Source: Ornithinimicrobium sp.
GTDB taxonomy: Bacteria > Actinomycetota > Actinomycetes > Actinomycetales > Dermatophilaceae
Direction: 5' to 3'
Length of the DNA: 14,755 bases
Assembly (NCBI GenBank): GCA_030145965.1
Contig: JASKZT010000244.1
Span: 1 to 14,755 of the forward strand
The notes under the pieces were generated by a model that was given only the letters and a program-made list of their open reading frames with translations, did no database searches and had not been told where the DNA came from. This document shows positions 1,662 to 14,755 of this stretch, piece by piece. Positions within the stretch are counted from its first letter, which is position 1. Each line of letters starts with the position of its first letter. The translations under genes and the position numbers were made by a program.

Positions 1662-1708
1662 GCCCGTCACCGGCCGGGCGTCACGGCGGAGCGGTCAGGC
1701 TCGTGGGC

Positions 1709-1714
1709 GAGACT
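1709..1714 (+). promoter_or_regulatory. -10-like hexamer GAGACT before protease gene
   Basis: GAGACT, six bases, then ATG at 1721. There is no ribosome binding site near that ATG. The hexamer fits nAnnnT only weakly, and the call rests mainly on the spacing shared with other genes of the window. Confidence 0.3.
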
Positions 1715-1720
1715 GTCCGC

Positions 1721-2431
1721 ATGACCGACGTCCCCCGCCGCCGCCGCTCCTGCGGCGGCGTCCTCGGCACGCTCCTCGTGGTCGGCACGGTCATCGTCGG
1801 CACCGTGGCCCTCTCGCCCGGTCTCGCGCTCACCGACCTGCGCGACGCGGCCGTCGACCCCCTGCGCGGCGTGCCGGGCTCCGGCGGCGAGGGCTACACC
1901 TTCATGGCCACGACCTCCTCCGGGGCGCCGGTGACGTGGCCCTGCGACGCCACGATCGAGGTGGAGGTCAACCCGCGCGGCGCGCCGGAGGGGTATGACG
2001 ACCTCGTCGCGTCCGCGCTCGCGCAGGTCGACGAGGCCAGCGCCTTCACGCTGCGGGTGGTGGGGGAGACCCAGGACCGGGGGTACCGCGACCGCGGGGC
2101 GGGACCGGTCCTGCTCATGTGGGCGGACGAGGACGAGGTGCCCGAGCTCGAGGGGCGCACGGCCGGCATCGGCGGGGCGACCTACGTCCGGGGGCCTGGC
2201 CGCGCCCAGGCGGTCGGCGGGATGGTCGTGCTCGACACCGACCTGCCCGGCGGCCTCCTGCGACGCACCGACCCGGAGCCGGTCCTCGTCCACGAGCTGC
2301 TGCACGTCCTGGGGCTGGGGCACACCGAGGACGCCTCCCAGCTCATGGCGCCGGAGTACTCCTCCCAGCGCGGCCTGGGCGAGGGGGACCTCGCCGGGCT
2401 GGAGGCGCTGCACGACGAGGCGTGCTCCTGA
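1721..2431 (+). CDS. Membrane-anchored matrixin-like zinc metalloprotease
   Basis: 236 residues. Residues 1-10 are basic (RRRR), and about 12-36 form a signal anchor or uncleaved signal peptide, so the rest should lie outside the membrane. The catalytic site is HELLHVLGLGH at 191-201: H191, H195 and H201 bind zinc and E192 is the general base, in the metzincin form HExxHxxGxxH. M209 in QLMAPEYSS fits the Met-turn. Residues 73-83 (WPCDATIEVEVN) open the protease domain, and C75 plus C235 near the end could form a disulfide. The layout resembles matrixin-like (peptidase M10) proteins of actinobacteria. The substrate is unknown. A GTG 18 nt upstream in frame is possible, but ATG 1721 is favoured by its -10 spacing. 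A paralogue lies at 10907-11974. Confidence 0.82.
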   Translation: MTDVPRRRRSCGGVLGTLLVVGTVIVGTVALSPGLALTDLRDAAVDPLRGVPGSGGEGYTFMATTSSGAPVTWPCDATIEVEVNPRGAPEGYDDLVASALAQVDEASAFTLRVVGETQDRGYRDRGAGPVLLMWADEDEVPELEGRTAGIGGATYVRGPGRAQAVGGMVVLDTDLPGGLLRRTDPEPVLVHELLHVLGLGHTEDASQLMAPEYSSQRGLGEGDLAGLEALHDEACS

Positions 2432-2452
2432 CCGGGGCCCAGCCGGCTCAGG
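2427..2452. terminator. Hairpin spanning two convergent stop codons
   Basis: CCTGACCGG (2427-2435) pairs with CCGG-C-TCAGG (2443-2452), with one bulged C at 2447 and a 7-nt loop. The stems contain the TGA of the protease gene and the complement of the TGA of the ATPase gene. With only 16 nt between the genes, it is the best candidate for a shared bidirectional terminator. Confidence 0.4.
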
Positions 2453-3602
2453 TGCCGGAGGGCACCGCGCGGCAGCCGCCCTCGACCCAGGCCCGAACCC
2501 GGTCGCCGGGGTGCGGCGGGTGGGCGCCGGTGCGGGCGCGCACGCTCGCGCCGTCGGGCAGCCCGAGGGTGACGAGCGCGTCGTGGCCGTGGAAGTCGAC
2601 CGAGCGCACGGTCACCGCGACGGCGCCCTCGGGCACCGCGCTCGCGACGTCGGGGCCGAGCCGCACCTGCTCCGGCCGGACGACGAGGTGGGTGGCCCCG
2701 GGGAGGGCGTCGGCGACGCGCACGCGACCGAGCGGCGTGAGCGCGTGGCCGCCCGGGACGCCGTCGACCTCGACGAGGTCCGCCTCGCCGACGAAGGTGG
2801 CCACCCAGGCGTCGACCGGGCGGGCGTAGACCTCCTCCGGCGTGCCGACCTGGCGGACGCGGCCCTCGCTGAGCACCGCGACGCGGTCGGCCATGGAGAG
2901 CGCCTCGCCCTGGTCGTGGGTGACGAGGACCGCCGTGGCCCCCGCCTCGCGCAGGGCGGTGCGGACGTCGGCGCGCAGCTCGCCGCGCAGGGAGGCGTCG
3001 AGCGCGCTGAACGGCTCGTCGAGGAGGACGAGCGGCGGGTGCGGTGCCAGGGCGCGGGCCAGGGCGACCCGCTGCTGCTGCCCGCCGGAGAGCTCGTGCG
3101 GCATCCGCGCGCCCATCCCGCCCAGGCCGACGAGCTCGAGGCACTCCTCGACCCGGCCGGTGCGCCCGGAGCGCCCGCCGGGGCGTCGCCGTCCCCGGCT
3201 CCCACCCAGGCCGAAGCCGACGTTGTCCGCCACCGACAGGTGCGGGAAGAGCGCGCCCTCCTGCGGCACGACCGCGACCTGGCGCCGGTGGGGCGGCAGG
3301 TGGATCCCGGGCAGGGCGACGGCGCGCTCGCCGAGGGCGATGCGGCCCTCGTCGATGCGCTCGAAGCCGGCGAGGCAGCGCAGCAGGGTCGTCTTGCCGC
3401 AGCCCGAGGGGCCCAGCACGGCCAGGAACTCCCCGGCCTCCATCGTCAGGCTCACCCGCGCCAGCGCGGCGACCGTCCCGAAGGACTTGCTCACGTCGAC
3501 GACCGTCACCGCGTGCTCGGGCGCGCGGGGCTCGGCCCGGTCGGGGGCGTGGGTCGTCATGGGGGTCGCGTCGCTCTCGGTGCGTGGCGGGGTGGTCGTC
3601 AT
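2448..3602 (-). CDS. fbpC: Ferric iron ABC transporter, ATP-binding protein
   Basis: 384-residue ATPase that powers uptake of Fe3+ through the permease encoded just upstream. Walker A is GPSGCGKT (64-71), the Q-loop glutamine is Q114, the signature is LSGGQQQ (171-177), Walker B is LVLLDE (191-196) and the switch histidine is H229. After about residue 275 comes the C-terminal TOBE-type domain found in FbpC/PotA-class ATPases. The ATG overlaps the permease stop codon in an ATGA, so translation is probably coupled. The first 30 residues are a Thr/Pro-rich extension. A second in-frame ATG at 3560 (MTTHAP) would remove 14 of them. A Gly/Arg-rich insert at 133-150 interrupts the helical region before the signature. 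The iron assignment comes from the neighbouring binding protein; a thiamine or phosphonate importer is less likely. Confidence 0.87.
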   Translation of the reverse strand: MTTTPPRTESDATPMTTHAPDRAEPRAPEHAVTVVDVSKSFGTVAALARVSLTMEAGEFLAVLGPSGCGKTTLLRCLAGFERIDEGRIALGERAVALPGIHLPPHRRQVAVVPQEGALFPHLSVADNVGFGLGGSRGRRRPGGRSGRTGRVEECLELVGLGGMGARMPHELSGGQQQRVALARALAPHPPLVLLDEPFSALDASLRGELRADVRTALREAGATAVLVTHDQGEALSMADRVAVLSEGRVRQVGTPEEVYARPVDAWVATFVGEADLVEVDGVPGGHALTPLGRVRVADALPGATHLVVRPEQVRLGPDVASAVPEGAVAVTVRSVDFHGHDALVTLGLPDGASVRARTGAHPPHPGDRVRAWVEGGCRAVPSGT

Positions 3603-5179
3603 GCTTTCACGCCCTCGAGGAGGTCGGTCGCGGCCTTGGGGTCCTCCACCTCGACCGGACTCAGCGGCTCGCGCTCGCCGGCGGCGGGCAGGATGCCGGT
3701 ACGGCGCACGACCAGCCAGGTCGGCACGGCGGCCAGGGCGACGAGGACGACGGCGTAGGGAGCGGCCTCGGCGTAGCGCCCGATCGCCGTCGCGCTCCAG
3801 AGCCGGGTGGCGAGCGTCTCCATGCCGGTCGGGCGCAGCAGCAGGGTGGCGGGCAGCTCCTTCATGGCGGTGAGGAAGACCAGCGCCGCGCCCGCCCCGA
3901 TGCCGGGCAGCGTCAGCGGCAGGGTCACCCGCCGGAAGACCTGGGCCGGCGTGCGGCCGAGGGCGGCCGCCGCCTCCTCGAGCGAGCGCGGTGCCTGCGC
4001 CGCGGCCGCGGCGACGGCACCGACCCCGAGCGGGAGGAAGAGCGTGGCGTAGGCGAGGGCCAGCAGCCACGTGGTCTGGTAGAGCGGCAGCGCCACCGTG
4101 ACCCCGAAGAACACCAGGGACAGGCCGACGACGACCCCGGGCAGGCTGTGCGCGAGGTAGGCCGCTCGCTCGAGCGCGCGGCTGAGCCGCCCCGGGTGGC
4201 GCGCGGCGAGGATGCCCACGGGCAGCGCGAGCAGCATCGTCAGCAGCGCGCCCAGGAGCGAGGCCGTGAGCGAGCCGGCGGCCGCGTCCCACAGGCGCCC
4301 GACGGCGTCCCGGGCGGAGGTGCCCTCGACGGTCCAGCGCACGAGCGACAGCGCCGGCACGCCGAGGGCGGCGACGAGCACGGCCAGGAGCGCCGCGCAC
4401 CCGCCCCAGCGCCATGCCCCGAGGTCCGCGGCGCGGGCGGGGCGCCGCAGGTGGGTGCCGGAGAACCGCGCGCCTGCGCGCCGGGTGCGGCCCTCCAGGA
4501 GCAGGATGACGACGGTGACGAGGACGAGCAGGGTCGCCAGCGTGAGCGCGCCCTGCCGGTTGAAGCCGGCGCTGAAGGCCGTGAACACCGCGCGGGTGAA
4601 GGTGTCCAGCCGCAGGATCGAGACCGCGCCGAAGTCCGCCAGGACGTAGAGCGCGGCGAGCAGCCCGCCGCCGGCGACGGCCGGGCGCACCTGCGGCAGC
4701 GTCACCGTGAGCACGGTGCGCAGGGGCCCCAGCCCGAGGGAGCGGGCGACCTCCTCCTGGGCCGGGTCGACGCGGACGAGCGCCGCCGCGACGGGCAGGT
4801 AGACGTAGGGGTAGGTGTAGAGCGTCAGCACGACCGCCGCGGCCGTGAACCCCTCGAAGCGGGTCCCGGGGTCGGCCGCCCAGAGGTCGGCCACGGAGAC
4901 CCAGGTGAAGGCGGCGACGTAGCTCGGCACCGCCAGCGGCAGCGCGAGGAGCACCGCGAAGGCGCGACGGCCGGGGGTGTTGCTGCGCGTCACCAGCCAC
5001 GCGCTGCCCACCCCGATGACGAGGCAGGCGGCGGTCACGACACCGGCGAGCAGCAGCGAGGTGGTGGCCAGCCGCGCCGTGCGCTCGGTGGCCACCGTCT
5101 CCACCCACGCGCCGAGGCCCCCCTGCCCGGTCCGCAGGACCAGGTAGGCGAGGGGGACCAGCGCCACCGCCGTGGCCAC
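3599..5179 (-). CDS. fbpB: Ferric iron ABC transporter, double-domain permease
   Basis: Inner-membrane channel of 526 residues with two fused MetI-type permease halves, as in FbpB/SfuB. Each half carries an EAA loop that docks on the ATPase: EEVARSLGLGPLRTVLTVTLP (starting at residue 142) and EEAAAALGRTPAQVFRRVTLP (starting at residue 401). About a dozen hydrophobic segments are visible. It ends in a 4-nt ATGA overlap with the ATPase gene. The start is uncertain: GTG 5179 falls inside the first hydrophobic segment, and the in-frame sequence continues upstream as LSPTRPHAALTAGAL to a CTG at 5224 that overlaps the TGA of the binding-protein gene. If CTG 5224 is used, the protein gains 15 residues and a full first membrane helix. 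Confidence 0.87.
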   Translation of the reverse strand: MATAVALVPLAYLVLRTGQGGLGAWVETVATERTARLATTSLLLAGVVTAACLVIGVGSAWLVTRSNTPGRRAFAVLLALPLAVPSYVAAFTWVSVADLWAADPGTRFEGFTAAAVVLTLYTYPYVYLPVAAALVRVDPAQEEVARSLGLGPLRTVLTVTLPQVRPAVAGGGLLAALYVLADFGAVSILRLDTFTRAVFTAFSAGFNRQGALTLATLLVLVTVVILLLEGRTRRAGARFSGTHLRRPARAADLGAWRWGGCAALLAVLVAALGVPALSLVRWTVEGTSARDAVGRLWDAAAGSLTASLLGALLTMLLALPVGILAARHPGRLSRALERAAYLAHSLPGVVVGLSLVFFGVTVALPLYQTTWLLALAYATLFLPLGVGAVAAAAAQAPRSLEEAAAALGRTPAQVFRRVTLPLTLPGIGAGAALVFLTAMKELPATLLLRPTGMETLATRLWSATAIGRYAEAAPYAVVLVALAAVPTWLVVRRTGILPAAGEREPLSPVEVEDPKAATDLLEGVKA

Positions 5180-5220
5180 GAGGGCCCCGGCGGTGAGCGC
5201 GGCGTGCGGGCGGGTGGGGC

Positions 5221-6282
5221 TCAGAGCAGCCCGGCCTGGGTGATCATCTCGATGGTCCGCTGCAGGTCGTCGAGGTCGTTGAGGTCGATGTCGGGCGTCT
5301 CGAGGTCCTCGAGCGGGGCCAGGTCGGCCGGCGTGCCGACGCCGGAGACCATCGGGTACTCCGAGGTCTCCTCGACGAAGTAGGTCTGTCCCGCCTCATC
5401 GAGCAGGTAGTCGACGAGCGCCTGGGCGTCGCCGTCGGCCTGCTCGCCGACGAGCCCGATGCCGGAGATGTTGACCAGCGCCCCGGCGTCGCCGTCGCCG
5501 AAGAAGTGCAGGCCGGCGCCGAGCTCCTCCGGCGCCACGCCCTGCTCCTCGGCGAGCTCGTAGAGGTAGTAGTGGTTGACCAGCCCGACGTCGATCGCGC
5601 CCGACTCCACATCGGCCACGATCATGCCGTTGCGCTCGCGGACCTGCGGGTCGTTGCCGGCGAGGTCGGTCAGCCACGCGGACGCGGCGTCGTCGCCCTC
5701 GAGCACGCGCATGGCGGTGACGAAGGACTGGAAGGAGGCGTTGGTCGGGGCGATGCCCACCCGGCCGGTCCACTCGGGACCGGTCAGCTCGGCGACGGTC
5801 TCGGGCAGCTCCTCCTCGCTCACGGCCTCCTTGTTGTAGACGAGGACACGGGAGCGACCGGTCAGGCCGACCCAGTCGCCCTCGCTCGAGCGGTAGGTCT
5901 CCGGCACGAGCTCGAGGGTCTCCTCCGGCAGCGCGACGAGGCGGCCCTCCCGGGAGACCGCCCCGAGGGCGCCGGCGTCCTGGGCGAGGAAGGCCTCGGC
6001 GGGCGAGCCCTCGCCCTCCTCCAGGATCTGCGCCGCCATCGCCGCGGTGTCGCCGTAGCGGACCTGGACCTCGATGCCGGTCTCCTCGGTGAACGAGTCC
6101 AGGACCGGCTGCACCAGCTCCTCGTTGCGGCCGGAGTAGAGCGTCAGCGTGCCGTCGCCCTCGGAGGCCGCCTCGGTGGACGCGCCACCGGTGGCCGGGG
6201 CGTCCTCCTCGGCGCCGCAGGCGGTCAGGCCGAGGACGAGGGCGCCGGCGGTCGTGAGGGCGAGCAGGCGGGAAGGAGTCAT
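5221..6282 (-). CDS. fbpA: Ferric iron-binding lipoprotein of the ABC importer
   Basis: 353 residues. The signal peptide ends in a lipobox (LGLTAC), so Cys22 should be lipidated and the protein anchored outside the membrane. The mature part starts with an acidic, Ala/Gly-rich linker and then TLTLYSGRNEELVQPVLDSF, the opening seen in FbpA/SfuA-class proteins. Y238 and Y239 in GLVNHYYLYEL match the tyrosine pair that binds Fe3+ in FbpA. The ATG at 6282 is chosen because AAGGA lies 7 nt upstream; a GTG two codons earlier would be almost on top of that site. It is the first gene of the three-gene import operon. A DtxR/IdeR-like palindrome lies 45 nt upstream, so repression by iron is the likely control. 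Confidence 0.88.
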   Translation of the reverse strand: MTPSRLLALTTAGALVLGLTACGAEEDAPATGGASTEAASEGDGTLTLYSGRNEELVQPVLDSFTEETGIEVQVRYGDTAAMAAQILEEGEGSPAEAFLAQDAGALGAVSREGRLVALPEETLELVPETYRSSEGDWVGLTGRSRVLVYNKEAVSEEELPETVAELTGPEWTGRVGIAPTNASFQSFVTAMRVLEGDDAASAWLTDLAGNDPQVRERNGMIVADVESGAIDVGLVNHYYLYELAEEQGVAPEELGAGLHFFGDGDAGALVNISGIGLVGEQADGDAQALVDYLLDEAGQTYFVEETSEYPMVSGVGTPADLAPLEDLETPDIDLNDLDDLQRTIEMITQAGLL

Positions 6283-6307
6283 GGGCACGTCCTTGGTGTG
6301 GTCGGTC

Positions 6308-6444: not shown

Positions 6445-7239
6445 GTGAGCACCCTCGTCCTCCTCCACGCCCATCCCGACGACGAGGCGTCGCAGACGGC
6501 CGGCACCATGCGCCTGGCCGCCGACGCCGGTCACCGCGTCGTCTGCGTCTACGCCACCGACGGCGACCACGGCACCGTCCCCGACGACCTCGCCGAGGGG
6601 GAGACGGTCGTCGCCCGCCGCCGCGCCGAGGCCGAGGCGTCGGCCCGGGTCCTGGGCACCGCGCGCGTCGCCTGGCTCGGCTACGCCGACTCCGGGATGA
6701 CGGGGTGGGAGCAGAACGGCCACGCGCTGTCCTTCCACGCCGCCGACACCGACGAGGCTGCCGCTCGTCTGGCGACCCTCCTCGACGAGGAGGACGCCGA
6801 CGTGGTGGTCGGCTACGACTGGCACGGCGGCTACGGCCACCCCGACCACGTCAAGGTGCATCACGTCGTCCACCGCGCGGCCGCCCTCGCGGCCCGCCGG
6901 CCCCGCGTGCTCGAGAGCACGATGAACCGGGACGAGCTGCGCCGTTCGTACGCGGCCGCGCGCGAGGCGGGGCCCCTGGGCGAGGCGGACTGGGACCCCG
7001 ACGCCCCGGCCGACGACGGCAACCCGCTGGGCACGCCCGAGGCGGAGCTGCACTGGCGGGTCGACGCCCGCCCCGTCCTCGCCGCCAAGCGGGCGGCGCT
7101 GGCCTGCCACGCCTCGCAGGACGACGTGCGCTGGATGCTGACGCTGGAGGAGGAGGTCTTCGCGCTGGCCTTCGGCGTCGAGTGGTACGCCGAGCCGGGG
7201 CGGGCCGCCGGCGTCACCGACGGGCACCCCGTGCCCTGA
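6445..7239 (+). CDS. PIG-L/LmbE-family zinc deacetylase
   Basis: About 264 residues of one PIG-L domain, which removes acetyl groups from N-acetylglucosaminyl compounds or related amides. The zinc site is visible: LLHAHPDDE near the N-terminus gives the His and Asp ligands and the catalytic Asp, and GYGHPDHVKVHH in the middle gives the third His ligand. MshB and Mca of mycothiol metabolism belong to the same family and share the late KRAALACHASQ pattern. Because actinobacteria carry several paralogues, I do not assign a specific substrate. The start is GTG 6445 or GTG 6439, differing by two residues (ML). It is divergent from the iron operon and convergent with the amino acid importer. Confidence 0.85.
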   Translation: MSTLVLLHAHPDDEASQTAGTMRLAADAGHRVVCVYATDGDHGTVPDDLAEGETVVARRRAEAEASARVLGTARVAWLGYADSGMTGWEQNGHALSFHAADTDEAAARLATLLDEEDADVVVGYDWHGGYGHPDHVKVHHVVHRAAALAARRPRVLESTMNRDELRRSYAAAREAGPLGEADWDPDAPADDGNPLGTPEAELHWRVDARPVLAAKRAALACHASQDDVRWMLTLEEEVFALAFGVEWYAEPGRAAGVTDGHPVP

Positions 7240-7248
7240 ACGGGCCCG

Positions 7249-7281
7249 CACGCCGCCGCGCCCGAGGGGCGGGGCGGCGTG
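7249..7281. terminator. Strong bidirectional terminator hairpin
   Basis: A 15-position stem (7249-7263 with 7267-7281) has a single G-G mismatch and a 3-nt loop GAG. It lies in the 49-nt gap between the convergent deacetylase and amino acid ATPase genes, 10 nt after one stop codon and 8 nt after the other. There is no T tract on either strand. Confidence 0.65.
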
Positions 7282-7288
7282 GACGTGG

Positions 7289-8047
7289 CTAGTGGTCGCT
7301 CAGCTGCGCCAGGAAGGCCTGGCCGCGCTCGCTGGTCGGCGCCCGGAGCACCTGGTCGGGCGGGCCCTGCTCGGCGATGCCGCCGTCGGCGAGGAGGACC
7401 ACCCGGTCGGCCGCCCGCTGGGCGAAGCGCATCTCGTGCGTGACGACCATCATCGTCATGCCGTCGTCGGCCAGGGACCGCATGACGTCGAGGACCTCGC
7501 CGACGAGCTCGGGGTCCAGCGCCGAGGTGGGCTCGTCGAAGAGCATGACGGCCGGGTCCATGGCGAGCGCCCGGGCGATGGCGACCCGCTGCTGCTGGCC
7601 GCCGGAGAGGTGCTCGGGGTAGGAGCCGGCCTTGTGGGCCAGGCCCACGCGCTCGAGCAGCTCGCCGGCGCGCGAGCGGGCCTCGTCCGCGGACCGGCCG
7701 AGCACCTCGCGCTGGGCGACCGTGAGGTTGCCCATGACGGTCATGTGCGGGAAGAGGTTGAAGGACTGGAAGACCATCCCGATCCGGGCCCGCAGGGAGT
7801 TCAGGCCCTTCTCGGTGTAGGCGAGCCGCTCGCCCGCGACCTCGATCGTGCCCTCGCTGATGCGCTCCAGCCCGTTGACGCAGCGCAGCAGCGTGCTCTT
7901 GCCGGCGCCCGAGGGCCCGATGAGGGTGACGACCTCGCCCTCGTGGACGTCGAGGTCCACGCCGTCGAGCACCGTCGTGCTCCCGAACCGCTTGACGATG
8001 CCTCGCATCGAGACCAGGGGCCTGCCCCGTCCGTCCGTGCTGGTCAT
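7289..8047 (-). CDS. Polar amino acid ABC transporter, ATP-binding protein
   Basis: 252-residue GlnQ-class ATPase. Walker A is GPSGAGKS (44-51), Q-loop Q94 is in [11 protein letters not shown], the signature LSGGQQQ is at 147-153, Walker B is VMLFDE (167-172) and the switch histidine is H204 in THEMRFA. The phrases [13 protein letters not shown] and [13 protein letters not shown] are typical of the polar amino acid subfamily, and there is no TOBE domain, unlike the iron ATPase of this window. Its ATG overlaps the permease stop by 4 nt (ATGA). It is the last gene of the operon, and a strong hairpin follows. The substrate is set by the binding protein and cannot be fixed from sequence; glutamine, glutamate, arginine and cystine are all possible. 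Confidence 0.9.
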
Positions 8048-9814: not shown

Positions 9815-10369
9815 TCAGTGGACGTGCCGGCGGAACCACGCCAGGCTCGCCGCCCACGGCCCGGAGCGGTCGGCGAGGTCGGGCAGGAGCGGCGCGAGCT
9901 CGGCGGAGAAGCTCTCGCTGGACTCCCGCGGCAGGAGCGAGGGCAGGTTGTCGATGGCGATGACGTCCAGGGGGTGCGTGGTGCCGCCCACCTGCCGGAC
10001 CGGCTCGTCCCACGTCGTGATGGCGGTGTTGACCGGCACGAGGTTGGCGTCGGAGGTGACGTCGCAGGTCACGTCACCCACGACCCGCAGGCGGCGGTCC
10101 GCCGTGAGGTCGGCCTCGGTGACGAAGGGCTCCTGGCCGTCCGAGCCTATGCTCACGACGCAGTTGACGAGGACGTCGTGGGCCAGCAGCGCCGCCCGGT
10201 CCAGCCGGATCGTGTCGGGCCGGTCCCACCGGGTCACGTGGCACCCGGCGACCGTGAGCGCCTCGACCGCGCCGCGGCCCGAGCGCCCGCGCGAGCCGAT
10301 GACCAGCGTGCGCTCGGGCTCGGCCGGCGTCGTTCCCCGCAGCCGGGCGTCGAGTTCCTCCCGCGTCAT
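9815..10369 (-). CDS. Saccharopine dehydrogenase, C-terminal (NAD-binding) fragment
   Basis: 184 residues from ATG 10369, or 187 from GTG 10378. It starts MTREELDARL, a linker typical of the middle of saccharopine dehydrogenase. TLVIGSRGRSGRGAVEAL is the glycine-rich NAD-binding turn. VLVNCVVSIG, the LRVVGDVTCDVTSDANLVPV segment and IAIDNLPSLLPRESS are family segments of the substrate and dimer region. The ATG overlaps the stop codon of the N-terminal fragment (ATGA), so re-initiation is possible, but I see no ribosome binding site. It lacks the N-terminal catalytic domain and cannot be a complete enzyme alone. The frame stays open to its natural stop at 9815. Confidence 0.75.
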   Translation of the reverse strand: MTREELDARLRGTTPAEPERTLVIGSRGRSGRGAVEALTVAGCHVTRWDRPDTIRLDRAALLAHDVLVNCVVSIGSDGQEPFVTEADLTADRRLRVVGDVTCDVTSDANLVPVNTAITTWDEPVRQVGGTTHPLDVIAIDNLPSLLPRESSESFSAELAPLLPDLADRSGPWAASLAWFRRHVH

Positions 10370-10857
10370 CGGGCCCACGGGTACGTCGGCGCGGCCCTCT
10401 CGGCGCTGCGCGCGCGGGGCGCCCTCGACGGCCCCGCCCAGAAGCCGAAGGCGACGACGCGCTTGCCGCCGACCGTGAGGTACTCGACGTCCAGCAGCTC
10501 CCCGCCGCCGCGGCGGAAGCGGTCGAGCACCTTCTCAGCACCTTCCTGCCCCTTGTAGGCGTGGGCGAAGAAGACGTGGGTGTGGCGCAGGTCCTCGGGG
10601 TCCTCGGGCAGCTCCTTGATGCCGACGACGACCGCGCCCTCGGGGGCGTCGGCCCAGGAGCCGGCCGGAGCCGTGGCGCAGCCGACGGCGACGTACTCCT
10701 CGAGGGGGACGACGCGGGTGGGCGACTCCTCGATCGTCACCGCGAAGCCGTCGGCGACGAGCCGGGCCGCGTCGGCGGGGACGATCGGGACGCGCTGCTC
10801 GGTCGGACGCGCCTCGGCACGGATCCACAGGTGGGGTCGGGTCAGGGGGTCGGTCAT
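10366..10857 (-). CDS. Saccharopine dehydrogenase, N-terminal fragment with a shifted tail
   Basis: 163 residues from ATG 10857. Residues 1-142 are the N-terminal domain of saccharopine dehydrogenase: HLWIRAEARPTEQRVPIVP, then GIKELP and HTHVFFAHAYK, in which K81 and H99 match the catalytic Lys and His of the family, then GGGELLDVEYL and VVAFGFWAG. From residue 143 on, the sequence (PSRAPRARSAERAAPTYPWAR) is foreign because the DNA from 10431 down to 10382 is inverted, and it stops at 10366. The ATG start is supported by TACCCT 7 nt upstream (leaderless form). Normal enzymes of this family are about 350-370 residues; the two fragments together give that length. The fragment may fold but lacks NAD binding. 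Confidence 0.75.
   Translation of the reverse strand: MTDPLTRPHLWIRAEARPTEQRVPIVPADAARLVADGFAVTIEESPTRVVPLEEYVAVGCATAPAGSWADAPEGAVVVGIKELPEDPEDLRHTHVFFAHAYKGQEGAEKVLDRFRRGGGELLDVEYLTVGGKRVVAFGFWAGPSRAPRARSAERAAPTYPWAR
10379..10435. other. 50-bp inverted segment within the saccharopine dehydrogenase gene
   Basis: On the plus strand, GGG (10379-10381) precedes a 50-bp core (10382-10431) followed by CCCC (10432-10435). Read on the plus strand, this piece encodes GYVGAALSALRARGALDG, the conserved linking helix that follows FGFWAG in saccharopine dehydrogenase, while the gene itself runs on the minus strand. Flipping the core between the G and C runs and restoring one C gives FGFWAGYVGAAL... and ...ALDGPVGPMTREELDARL in a single frame. 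No recombinase gene or long inverted repeat lies nearby. Confidence 0.82.
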
Positions 10858-10906: not shown

Positions 10907-11974
10907 ATGGGGATGTTCGAGGGGGCCGCGCGCAGGCGGCGGGCCGCCGAGCTGGAGCGGCGGCTGGCCGAGCTGGACGCGTGGGACCGCCGCTACGGGC
11001 TGGGCGGCGCCCCGCCCGGCCATCCCGCCCACCGCCCGGACACGACCTGGCGCCACCACTCGCCCGACGGCGTCGCACCGCTGCGCGCCCTGGACCCGGC
11101 GCCGAGAGCGCTCGCGCACCGTCCGCGGCGGCGCCGGGGACGTGGGGTCCTCGCGCTGCTCGCCGTGGGCACGGTCGCCGCGGCGGTGGCCCTGCCCGCG
11201 CAGCGGGTCCAGGTGCAGGACTGGGCGGCGCAGGCCGCCCGCTCGGTCATGGGCCTGCCCGAGCAGGAGACGGCGGGGGACGGGGGCGGCACCGCCCGGG
11301 GGGACCGGGCCCTCGACGAGATCGTCCAGCGCTGGACGCCGCCGGCGGACACGCCGGTCTGGGGCTGGGAGCCGCCTCGCGGGACCCGGGTCCGGCCACC
11401 GGTCGAGGCGACGACGAGCGGGTCCTACGTCGTCCTCCAGACCCAGCCCGGCACCGACGTCCCCGTCGGCTTCTCGCCCTGCGGTCCCGTAGGGGTGGTG
11501 GTCAACCCGGCCTCGGCGCCCCCGGACCACACCGAGCTCGTCCAGGCCTCCCTCGGCCGGCTGGGCGCCGCCTCCGGGCTTGAGCTCCTGCTCGTCGGCG
11601 AGACCGACGACGTCTGGACCGAGGAGTCGCGCGACCTGGGCGCCCCGGTGCTCGTGTCGTGGTCCGACCCCGCGACGGTGCCGCTGCTCGACGGGCCGAC
11701 CGTGGGGCTGGGCGGGGCGACCACGGTGAGCGGGCCGGACGGGGTGCGCTGGCACGCGACCGGCCAGGTCGTCCTGGACAGCACGGCCCTGACCCGGTGG
11801 GAGCAGCACGCCTCGGTCCTCGACCACGAGCTCGCCCACGTGCTGGGTCTCGACCACGTCGACGACCCGGGCGAGCTCATGGCGGCCGTGAGCACGACCG
11901 GCCGCGCCGGCTTCGGGCCCGGCGACCTCCAGGGGCTCGCGGCCCTCGGCGCCATCCCCTGCCCGGGGGAGTGA
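10907..11974 (+). CDS. Second membrane-anchored matrixin-like metalloprotease
   Basis: 355 residues. The N-terminal 1-75 are charged and cytosolic, with an Arg-rich start and a possible short coiled coil (RRAAELERRLAELDAW). A single membrane helix at about 79-98 follows RRRRGRG, then a spacer, then the protease domain from about 188. The active site HELAHVLGLDH (307-317) gives zinc ligands H307, H311 and H317 and catalytic E308. M325 in GELMAAVS fits the Met-turn. C192 (SPCGPVGVVVN) and C352 (PCPGE) align with the cysteine pair of the protein at 1721-2431. Shared landmarks include VVVNP, LLLVGET, APVLVSWSD, VGLGGATTVSGP and QVVLDS. Start chosen at ATG 10907 by its -10 spacing; an ATG two codons on is also possible. 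Substrate unknown. Confidence 0.8.
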   Translation: MGMFEGAARRRRAAELERRLAELDAWDRRYGLGGAPPGHPAHRPDTTWRHHSPDGVAPLRALDPAPRALAHRPRRRRGRGVLALLAVGTVAAAVALPAQRVQVQDWAAQAARSVMGLPEQETAGDGGGTARGDRALDEIVQRWTPPADTPVWGWEPPRGTRVRPPVEATTSGSYVVLQTQPGTDVPVGFSPCGPVGVVVNPASAPPDHTELVQASLGRLGAASGLELLLVGETDDVWTEESRDLGAPVLVSWSDPATVPLLDGPTVGLGGATTVSGPDGVRWHATGQVVLDSTALTRWEQHASVLDHELAHVLGLDHVDDPGELMAAVSTTGRAGFGPGDLQGLAALGAIPCPGE

Positions 11975-13172: not shown

Positions 13173-13784
13173 ATGGCGACACGCGGGTGGCGGTTCACCG
13201 GCCGCATCCTCGGGGTCGGCACGAGCAGCGGGGTGCGGCTGGTCGTGGGGCTGTGGGACGACTCCCCGCTCGGCAGCTTCGCCGACGTCATGGTGGAGCG
13301 CGCGGACGGTCACCGGCTGCTGCTCGCACCGGGGCGGGAGGTGGCCGACTTCGTGTCCGCCACCTACTCCTTCGACACCGTCCGCGTGGAGCCGGTGCGG
13401 GGCCGCTGCGCGGACGGGCGGCTCGAGGTCTCCTCGCCCTCGCTGCGCCTGACGGCGACCCTCGGCGGGCGCACCCCGCTGGGTCGGCTGCTGCGCGGCG
13501 TGCCCCGCGGCATGGCCGGCCGGCCGCTCGTCGCCACGCTCACCGACCCCGTCGCGCGGGTCGCCCTGCGCGGGGTCCGCACCCGGGGCAGCGCCGGCGG
13601 CGGGCGTCGGGAGTACTACGGGGCGACCGACGTGCACGCGGTGGTGGGGCTGGACGCGACGCTGGAGGGGGCCGACCTGGGCGTGCTCGCCCCGGTCGAC
13701 CCCCCGACCCGCTTCGGCTTCTCCTCGACGCCGCGCCGGCCCAGCCTCACCACCGTCGTGACGACGGTGGTCGGCGCGGGCTAG
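13173..13784 (+). CDS. Conserved hypothetical protein
   Basis: 203 residues, no signal peptide or membrane helix, and no motif that I can assign to a known enzyme. It is a beta-rich looking, Val/Arg/Gly-rich chain with segments RGWRFTGRILGVGTSSGVRL, DSPLGSFADVMVERADGHRLLLAP, FVSATYSFDTVRV and RREYYGATDVHAV. I have the impression of homologues only in actinobacteria but cannot check that. The ATG at 13173 is chosen by CAGGAT 5 nt upstream; an in-frame opening further upstream would run into the divergent gene. The C-terminus repeats TTVV twice, encoded by a palindrome (13749-13771). Its TAG stop overlaps the TAG stop of the convergent aldo/keto reductase. Confidence 0.7.
   Translation: MATRGWRFTGRILGVGTSSGVRLVVGLWDDSPLGSFADVMVERADGHRLLLAPGREVADFVSATYSFDTVRVEPVRGRCADGRLEVSSPSLRLTATLGGRTPLGRLLRGVPRGMAGRPLVATLTDPVARVALRGVRTRGSAGGGRREYYGATDVHAVVGLDATLEGADLGVLAPVDPPTRFGFSSTPRRPSLTTVVTTVVGAG
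13749..13771. terminator. Perfect 11-bp palindrome at the end of two convergent genes
   Basis: The left arm (13749-13759) and right arm (13761-13771) are exact reverse complements around a single G at 13760. It lies inside the last codons of the hypothetical gene and 10 nt past the stop of the aldo/keto reductase gene. No other hairpin is available to end either transcript, so it may serve both. As RNA the central bases would form the loop. Confidence 0.45.
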
Positions 13785-14755
13785 GCGACGCGCGTCCCCG
13801 GCGCGCGGGCGGCGGTCTGGCCGGCGTCGCGCTGCACGACGTCGCCGAGGGCCTCGTCGATCTTGGTCATGAGGTCGGCGTCGAGCGTGACGCCGGCGGC
13901 CTTCACGTTGTCCTGCACCTGCTCGGGGCGGGAGGCGCCGACGAGCGCGGCGGCGACGTTGGGGTTCTGCAGCACCCAGGCGACCGCGAGCTGCGGCATG
14001 GTGAGGCCGGCCTCCTCCGCGAGGGGCTTGAGCCGCTGCACCGCGGTGAGCACCTCGTCGCGCATGAAGCCCTCCATGCCGCGGCCCATCTTCGCGTCGG
14101 CGGCGCGGCCCTCGGTGGGCTGCCGGCCGGGCAGGTACTTGCCGGAGAGGACGCCCTGGGCCATCGGGCTCCAGACGATCTGGGAGATGCCGAGCTCCTC
14201 GCAGGCCGGGACGACCTCGGGCTCGATGACGCGCCACAGCATCGAGTACTGCGGCTGGGAGGAGATGAGCTGGAAGCCGAGCTCCCTGCTCAGCCGGTGG
14301 CCCTCGCGGATCTGGTCGGCGGTCCACTCCGAGACGCCGATGTAGAGCGCCTTGCCCTGGCGGACGATGTCGGCGAAGGCCTGCATCGTCTCCTCGAGCG
14401 GCGTCTCGGTGTCGTAGCGGTGCGCCTGGTAGAGGTCCACGTAGTCGGTCTGGAGCCGGCGCAGCGAGCCGTCGATCGACTCCATGACGTGCTTGCGCGA
14501 CAGGCCGGTGTCGTTCTTGCCGCCGGGACCGGTCGGCCAGTAGACCTTGGTGAAGATCTCCAGGCTCTCGCGGCGCTCGCCCTTGAGGGCCTCGCCGAGG
14601 ACGGTCTCGGCCTTGGTGTTGGCGTAGACGTCCGCCGTGTCGAAGGTCGAGATGCCGGCGTCGAGCGCCGCGCGCACGCACCGGTGCGCCACCTCGTTCT
14701 CCACCTGGGACCCGTGGGTCAGCCAGTTGCCGTAGGTGATCTCGCTGATCTTCAG
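13781..14755 (-). CDS. Aldo/keto reductase, Kv-beta-like, partial at the right edge
   Basis: At least 324 residues of an NADPH-dependent TIM-barrel oxidoreductase. The frame is open to the window edge, so the true start lies beyond it. The first visible residues (LKISEITYGNWLTHGSQVEN) are typical of the beginning of this family, so only some ten residues should be missing. The catalytic tetrad can be placed: Asp and Tyr in STFDTADVYA, Lys in IFTKVYW, His in LYQAHRYD. The NADPH-binding region is visible in VAAALVGASRPEQVQDN. IGVSEWTADQI and QPQYSMLWR are close to the AKR6 group (voltage-gated potassium channel beta-subunit-like). The substrate cannot be predicted. Its stop TAG overlaps that of the convergent hypothetical gene in a CTAG. 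Confidence 0.9.
   Translation of the reverse strand: MKISEITYGNWLTHGSQVENEVAHRCVRAALDAGISTFDTADVYANTKAETVLGEALKGERRESLEIFTKVYWPTGPGGKNDTGLSRKHVMESIDGSLRRLQTDYVDLYQAHRYDTETPLEETMQAFADIVRQGKALYIGVSEWTADQIREGHRLSRELGFQLISSQPQYSMLWRVIEPEVVPACEELGISQIVWSPMAQGVLSGKYLPGRQPTEGRAADAKMGRGMEGFMRDEVLTAVQRLKPLAEEAGLTMPQLAVAWVLQNPNVAAALVGASRPEQVQDNVKAAGVTLDADLMTKIDEALGDVVQRDAGQTAARAPGTRVA

Follow-up and report, generated by a model that had tools for sequence, protein, structure and literature searches.

The question raised by this locus is how a gene for a saccharopine dehydrogenase of the Lys1 type (the NAD+, L-lysine-forming enzyme) came to be divided into two overlapping reading frames in Ornithinimicrobium sp., and what kind of event would account for the break. 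The locus lies on the minus strand of a stretch of 14,755 nucleotides, which was analysed as a whole and is termed the window. Within the gene, a core of 50 bases was observed to be inverted in place. The explanation that agrees best with the evidence, to which a probability of about two in three is assigned, is that a recent template-switch micro-inversion at G/C runs disrupted an ordinary Lys1-type gene.

The identity of the gene was established by comparison with relatives, by which its start was also placed at the ATG at 10857. The best genome match of the gene displayed 82% DNA identity over query bases 9-1040 of 1043, and the best named matches of the window belonged to Ornithinimicrobium and Serinicoccus. 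The protein of an intact relative was aligned over residues 5-340 of 342 with the yeast Lys1 structures 3ugk, 2q99 and 2qrj (E 7e-63 to 4.3e-62), and the window gene is, as judged from sequence likeness, a homologue of yeast Lys1, the NAD+ saccharopine dehydrogenase; a search of NCBIfam returned no model above its cut-off for this gene. Both the AlaDh/PNT N domain and the Rossmann C domain were matched and can be aligned with Lys1, whereas the single open frame over both domains is absent in the window, where the gene is broken, unlike the intact enzyme. At the sensitivity of a DNA search, the Lys1-type gene was recovered from at least 41 of the family's 186 genomes, counted from listed matches with a span of about 770 nt upwards, and this patchy spread is consistent with the gene being dispensable.

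Table 1. Features of the disrupted Lys1-type locus, with positions counted in the window
Feature	Position	Strand	Basis
Disrupted Lys1-type saccharopine dehydrogenase gene, whole locus	9815..10857	-	82% DNA match; Lys1 structures
N-terminal ORF, 163 aa, AlaDh_PNT_N domain to FGFWAG	10366..10857	-	Pfam PF05222, E 1.7e-20
CCCC run, other junction	10432..10435	+	sequence
Inverted 50-bp core	10382..10431	.	plus strand carries the relatives' sense-strand content
GGG run, one junction, arm of 3-bp inverted repeat	10379..10381	+	sequence
ATGA, in which the C-ORF ATG (10369-10367) overlaps the N-ORF TGA (10368-10366)	10366..10369	-	sequence
C-terminal ORF, 184 aa from ATG, Rossmann (AlaDh_PNT_C-like) domain	9815..10369	-	PF01262

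The nature of the segment between the two pieces was revealed by the nearest fetched protein, P0131, which shares 96.4% identity with the N-terminal piece and 90.8% with the C-terminal piece. Where P0131 carries FGFWAGYVGAALAALRARGALDGPVGPM, with a sense strand over the segment of FGFWAGYVGAALAALRARGALDGPVGPMTR, the plus strand of the window core reads YVGAALSALRARGALD. The peptide encoded by the plus-strand core reached a score of 72 against the P0131 segment, compared with 28 for the sense core in its best frame. Of 5000 sequences shuffled in two-base blocks none attained this score (maximum 43), nor did any of 3858 other 50-mers of the window (maximum 35), the latter being drawn from both strands at every seventh base outside the gene, and the match between the core peptide and P0131 is not a product of chance.

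At the DNA level, it had been predicted that relatives should carry the core in the opposite orientation, and the inverted core indeed gave the better fit in 63 of 69 loci. The six exceptions comprised L027, L032, L035, L037 and L038, which are remote or partial genes, and L046, a short spurious match. In 30 of the 69 loci the score of the inverted core was unmatched by any of 200 shuffles; the signal from DNA alone was weaker in the others, of which L054 (91 of 200 shuffles) is an example, and the core as it stands scored above all shuffles at the spurious L046 only. One open frame was found across the spot in 71 of the 72 loci with a tblastn match, which represent 60 distinct sequences because duplicates of the same gene are included, and the 72nd locus, L038, matches residues 182-326 only and leaves the spot uncovered.

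A reversal scan was further conducted against three syntenic relatives, with 1362, 1057 and 777 testable blocks respectively, some places being testable in fewer than three. The block 10371-10440 fitted better reversed in all three relatives and furnished the largest reversal gain in each, and no other reversed place recurred in all three, where testable. Somewhat better fits in reverse were encountered elsewhere, including some blocks common to two relatives (about 7201-7300, 11181-11240 and 13741-13790). The core corresponds, as a reverse complement, to what the relatives have at this position, as would be expected of a template-switch micro-inversion.

Inversion alone does not account for the event, since the interval between the TTC codon and the ATG measures 74 nt in the window and 75 nt in all 20 relatives examined. 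The base that was lost is plausibly a C of the run, given that P0131 has a proline at the supposed position of this C. The sequence-only reading had described a minus strand that is clean up to ..VVAFGFWAG and again from MTREELDARL, a plus strand that encodes the family's peptide in between, a core with GGG and CCCC at its borders, and a saccharopine dehydrogenase gene divided by the inversion of 50 bp, with one base lost overall; this description, the single-base deficit included, was borne out by the comparisons, and its coordinates for the core proved exact.

As for the consequence at the protein level, the N-terminal ORF acquires a tail of 21 residues from and after the inverted core, which matches no fetched homologue and is followed by the TGA. 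The C-terminal ORF would comprise 187 aa if it were begun at GTG 10378, and it retains 77-81% identity to the three syntenic relatives without stops; its match to the Rossmann family attained E 1.2e-4 and 22.1 bits, below the gathering score of 23. A single helix spans residues 134-149 in the structural model of an intact relative (mean pLDDT 90.7; alignment of 31 sequences). This helix comes after the Pfam match to the N domain has ended and before the Rossmann part, and is thus presumably an interdomain helix. The reversed codons span roughly residues 139-155, and Y139, G141, A142 and L144 of the helix are invariant in the 31 sequences. The flip is therefore predicted by the model to swap most of this putative interdomain helix for unrelated residues, and loss of enzyme function is to be expected because invariant helix residues are among the reversed codons.

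The mechanism proposed for this inversion is a template switch, which would proceed as follows. During replication, the nascent strand would leave its template at the G run, anneal to the complementary strand at the C run some 50 bases further on, copy the 50 intervening bases backwards, and return at the C run with the register shifted by one base, so that one event with two switches would yield both the flipped core and the net loss of one base. In the window the frame is lost, most of the helix is predicted to be replaced, and translation would end at the TGA that overlaps the next in-frame ATG. The inverted repeat at the flanks is weak evidence for this mechanism, being 3 bp as it stands, a length found in 3% of the 40-60-nt blocks of the window, whose G+C content is 75%. 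At the same offset, complementarity amounts to 0-1 bp in the 20 relatives examined, which implies that the junction complementarity may be specific to this lineage or have arisen in part through the event itself.

Whether a hairpin drove the event was considered as well. Shuffled sequences folded at least as well as the junction DNA in 179 of 200 cases (z +1.14), a result computed on the present sequence rather than on that before the event, and the longest inverted repeat in 10340-10480 (10345-10365 with 10413-10433, 21 nt, 76%) fails to bracket the core. A hairpin-driven event was rejected on the fold, and a hairpin is not required for an intermolecular template switch. The sequence-only proposal of a hairpin-mediated template switch or a cut-and-flip is upheld in part: the template switch is retained as the best available mechanism, and the hairpin is weakly supported in view of the fold and the 3-bp repeat.

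Comparable events have been reported in other organisms. In S. cerevisiae genes, intermolecular template switching is documented to invert the spacer that separates two short inverted repeats (PMC8604942), which resembles the window in that an in-gene stretch is inverted between complementary runs and two switches suffice. The yeast cases have arms of more than 9 bp, inverted spacers of 2-5 bp and amino-acid replacements (PMC8604942), whereas in the window the arm of the present sequence is 3 bp, 50 bases are inverted, one base is lost and the gene is split. Because the spacer inversions of yeast have longer arms and far shorter spacers, the template switch is regarded as the best available mechanism and not as a proven one. 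Short-range template-switch mutations are also described for great apes (PMC7954356), in an account that cites an original hairpin model proposed for bacteria. The likeness to these mutations consists in local reverse-complement copying in one event, and the window differs from them in its lack of a hairpin signal, in its bacterial gene and in being a single case. Template-switch inversions have thus already been described, and the window is a new instance rather than a new kind.

The age of the inversion was approached through the constraint on both halves. No departure from columns conserved at 95% or more was observed in either half, compared with means of 0.57 and 0.61 among 119 homologues, which makes for a weak test since the median homologue also has 0 departures. 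The pN/pS values of the halves against three relatives were 0.17-0.20 and 0.33-0.47, similar to those between the same three relatives (0.19-0.23 and 0.32-0.43). In relative-rate comparisons with 10 outgroups, the window accumulated 2-4 changes in the N-terminal piece against 0-1 in P0131 (chi-square up to 4.0), and 3-6 changes in the C-terminal piece against 0-3 (chi-square up to 5.0); given this excess, the event may date from earlier than would be judged from the conserved columns. Clear decay is not apparent in the coding sequence of either half, and a recent inversion seems likelier, with the reservation that an artefact would look alike. The recency claimed from the window is therefore upheld by the absence of clear decay and by pN/pS values like those of relatives, and is tempered by the relative-rate excess.

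Among the alternatives, an artefact deserves the most attention and is judged possible but unlikely. It would take the form of a template-switch chimera from library preparation or whole-genome amplification, or of a consensus error in a G+C-rich contig of low coverage. The flipped allele has been sighted once, in the window only: it was absent from the best 120 of 138 protein matches to the C-terminal fragment (best identity 79%), none of 11 protein matches to the N-terminal fragment extended more than 2 residues into the out-of-family tail, and in the 249 fetched proteins the best match to the tail was one of 10 residues at E 4.2, the fragment searches covering only called proteins of limited length. 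Such an origin would also suit a G+C-rich site with an additional 1-nt deficit, and halves that have not clearly decayed. Against it stands the rest of the window, in which the 14 other genes compared with relatives are all open in frame (the plus-strand ORF ending at 13784 was left out of this comparison) and no other reversed block recurs in the three relatives. The general quality of the window hence looks good, poor sequence quality as a general cause is disfavoured, and the earlier statement that no other damage is visible holds as far as the comparisons reach. Moreover, both junctions would have to share the same reads, and an assembler alone would be an unlikely source of a flip from a 3-bp repeat.

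In the course of this search, the database protein P0249 was considered as a second sighting because of 93% identity over 27 residues, and it was rejected since it matches the N-terminus only. This protein of 187 aa consists of 27 N-terminal residues of the enzyme followed by other sequence (PF00717, precomputed), and is possibly a chimera or a misassembly.

A cut-and-flip, in which two close breaks release a 50-bp piece that is religated backwards by end joining with the loss of one base, is decidedly improbable. Its end product would be identical, the base lost at a junction would be accounted for, and many actinobacteria are known to possess Ku/LigD end joining. Such a route would, however, demand breaks 50 bp apart and the retention of a tiny duplex in between, and the complementary junction runs favour copying, albeit modestly, given the 3% of blocks with equal complementarity.

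A reversible intragenic inverton, namely a phase-variable switch acting on the Lys1-type gene, is very improbable. Intragenic invertons, reportedly described by Chanin et al. in 2024, share with the window an inversion within a bacterial gene that alters the protein, and the inversion here does fall inside coding sequence. Invertons have longer inverted repeats that serve a recombinase, and both orientations occur in one population. In the window, by contrast, the inverted repeat is just 3 bp, no recombinase was recognised among the ORFs (inspected by eye, with Pfam run on 10), flipping back with the 1-nt deficit gives no open frame, and the 71 covering loci of relatives are all open across the spot.

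Equally hard to credit is a functional split enzyme, in which the flip would be a gene-splitting mutation and no knock-out, and two translationally coupled half-proteins would still assemble: the ATGA arrangement is a common one and both halves look constrained, but the flip replaces the greater part of a putative interdomain helix that contains invariant residues, the purine-rich AGAGGG lies 16 nt upstream of the GTG, which is farther than usual, and constraint that predates a recent event would look identical.

On the template-switch reading, this locus is a clear-cut case in which a bacterial gene has apparently been lost because 50 bp were inverted in place. An annotation would list a pair of frameshifted fragments and overlook that both have one cause, and, if the inversion is real, some of the bacterial 'frameshifted pseudogenes' merit rescanning for short reversed segments.

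Several further features of the window and of the relatives were recorded. Matrixin-like genes are located at 1703-2428 (+), with a Peptidase_M10 match of E 1.5e-7, and at 10907-11971 (+), with E 6.3e-5, just under the gathering score; the former has about 66% DNA likeness to the relatives' region that matches the latter, from which the two look like paralogues. An ABC importer set at 2448-6288 (-), composed of an ATPase with TOBE_2, a permease and a solute-binding protein, has orthologous DNA at the same place in L070 and no match in the fetched stretches of L071, L072 and L073, that of L072 stopping at a contig end, and this set may be a variable cassette. Finally, the locus L007 (QEUR01000023.1), labelled 'Acidobacteria bacterium ATN4', harbors an Ornithinimicrobium-like gene whose C part is 79% identical, and its genome is grouped in the family of Ornithinimicrobium sp. 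CNJ-824 (as G006), so that the label is probably wrong.
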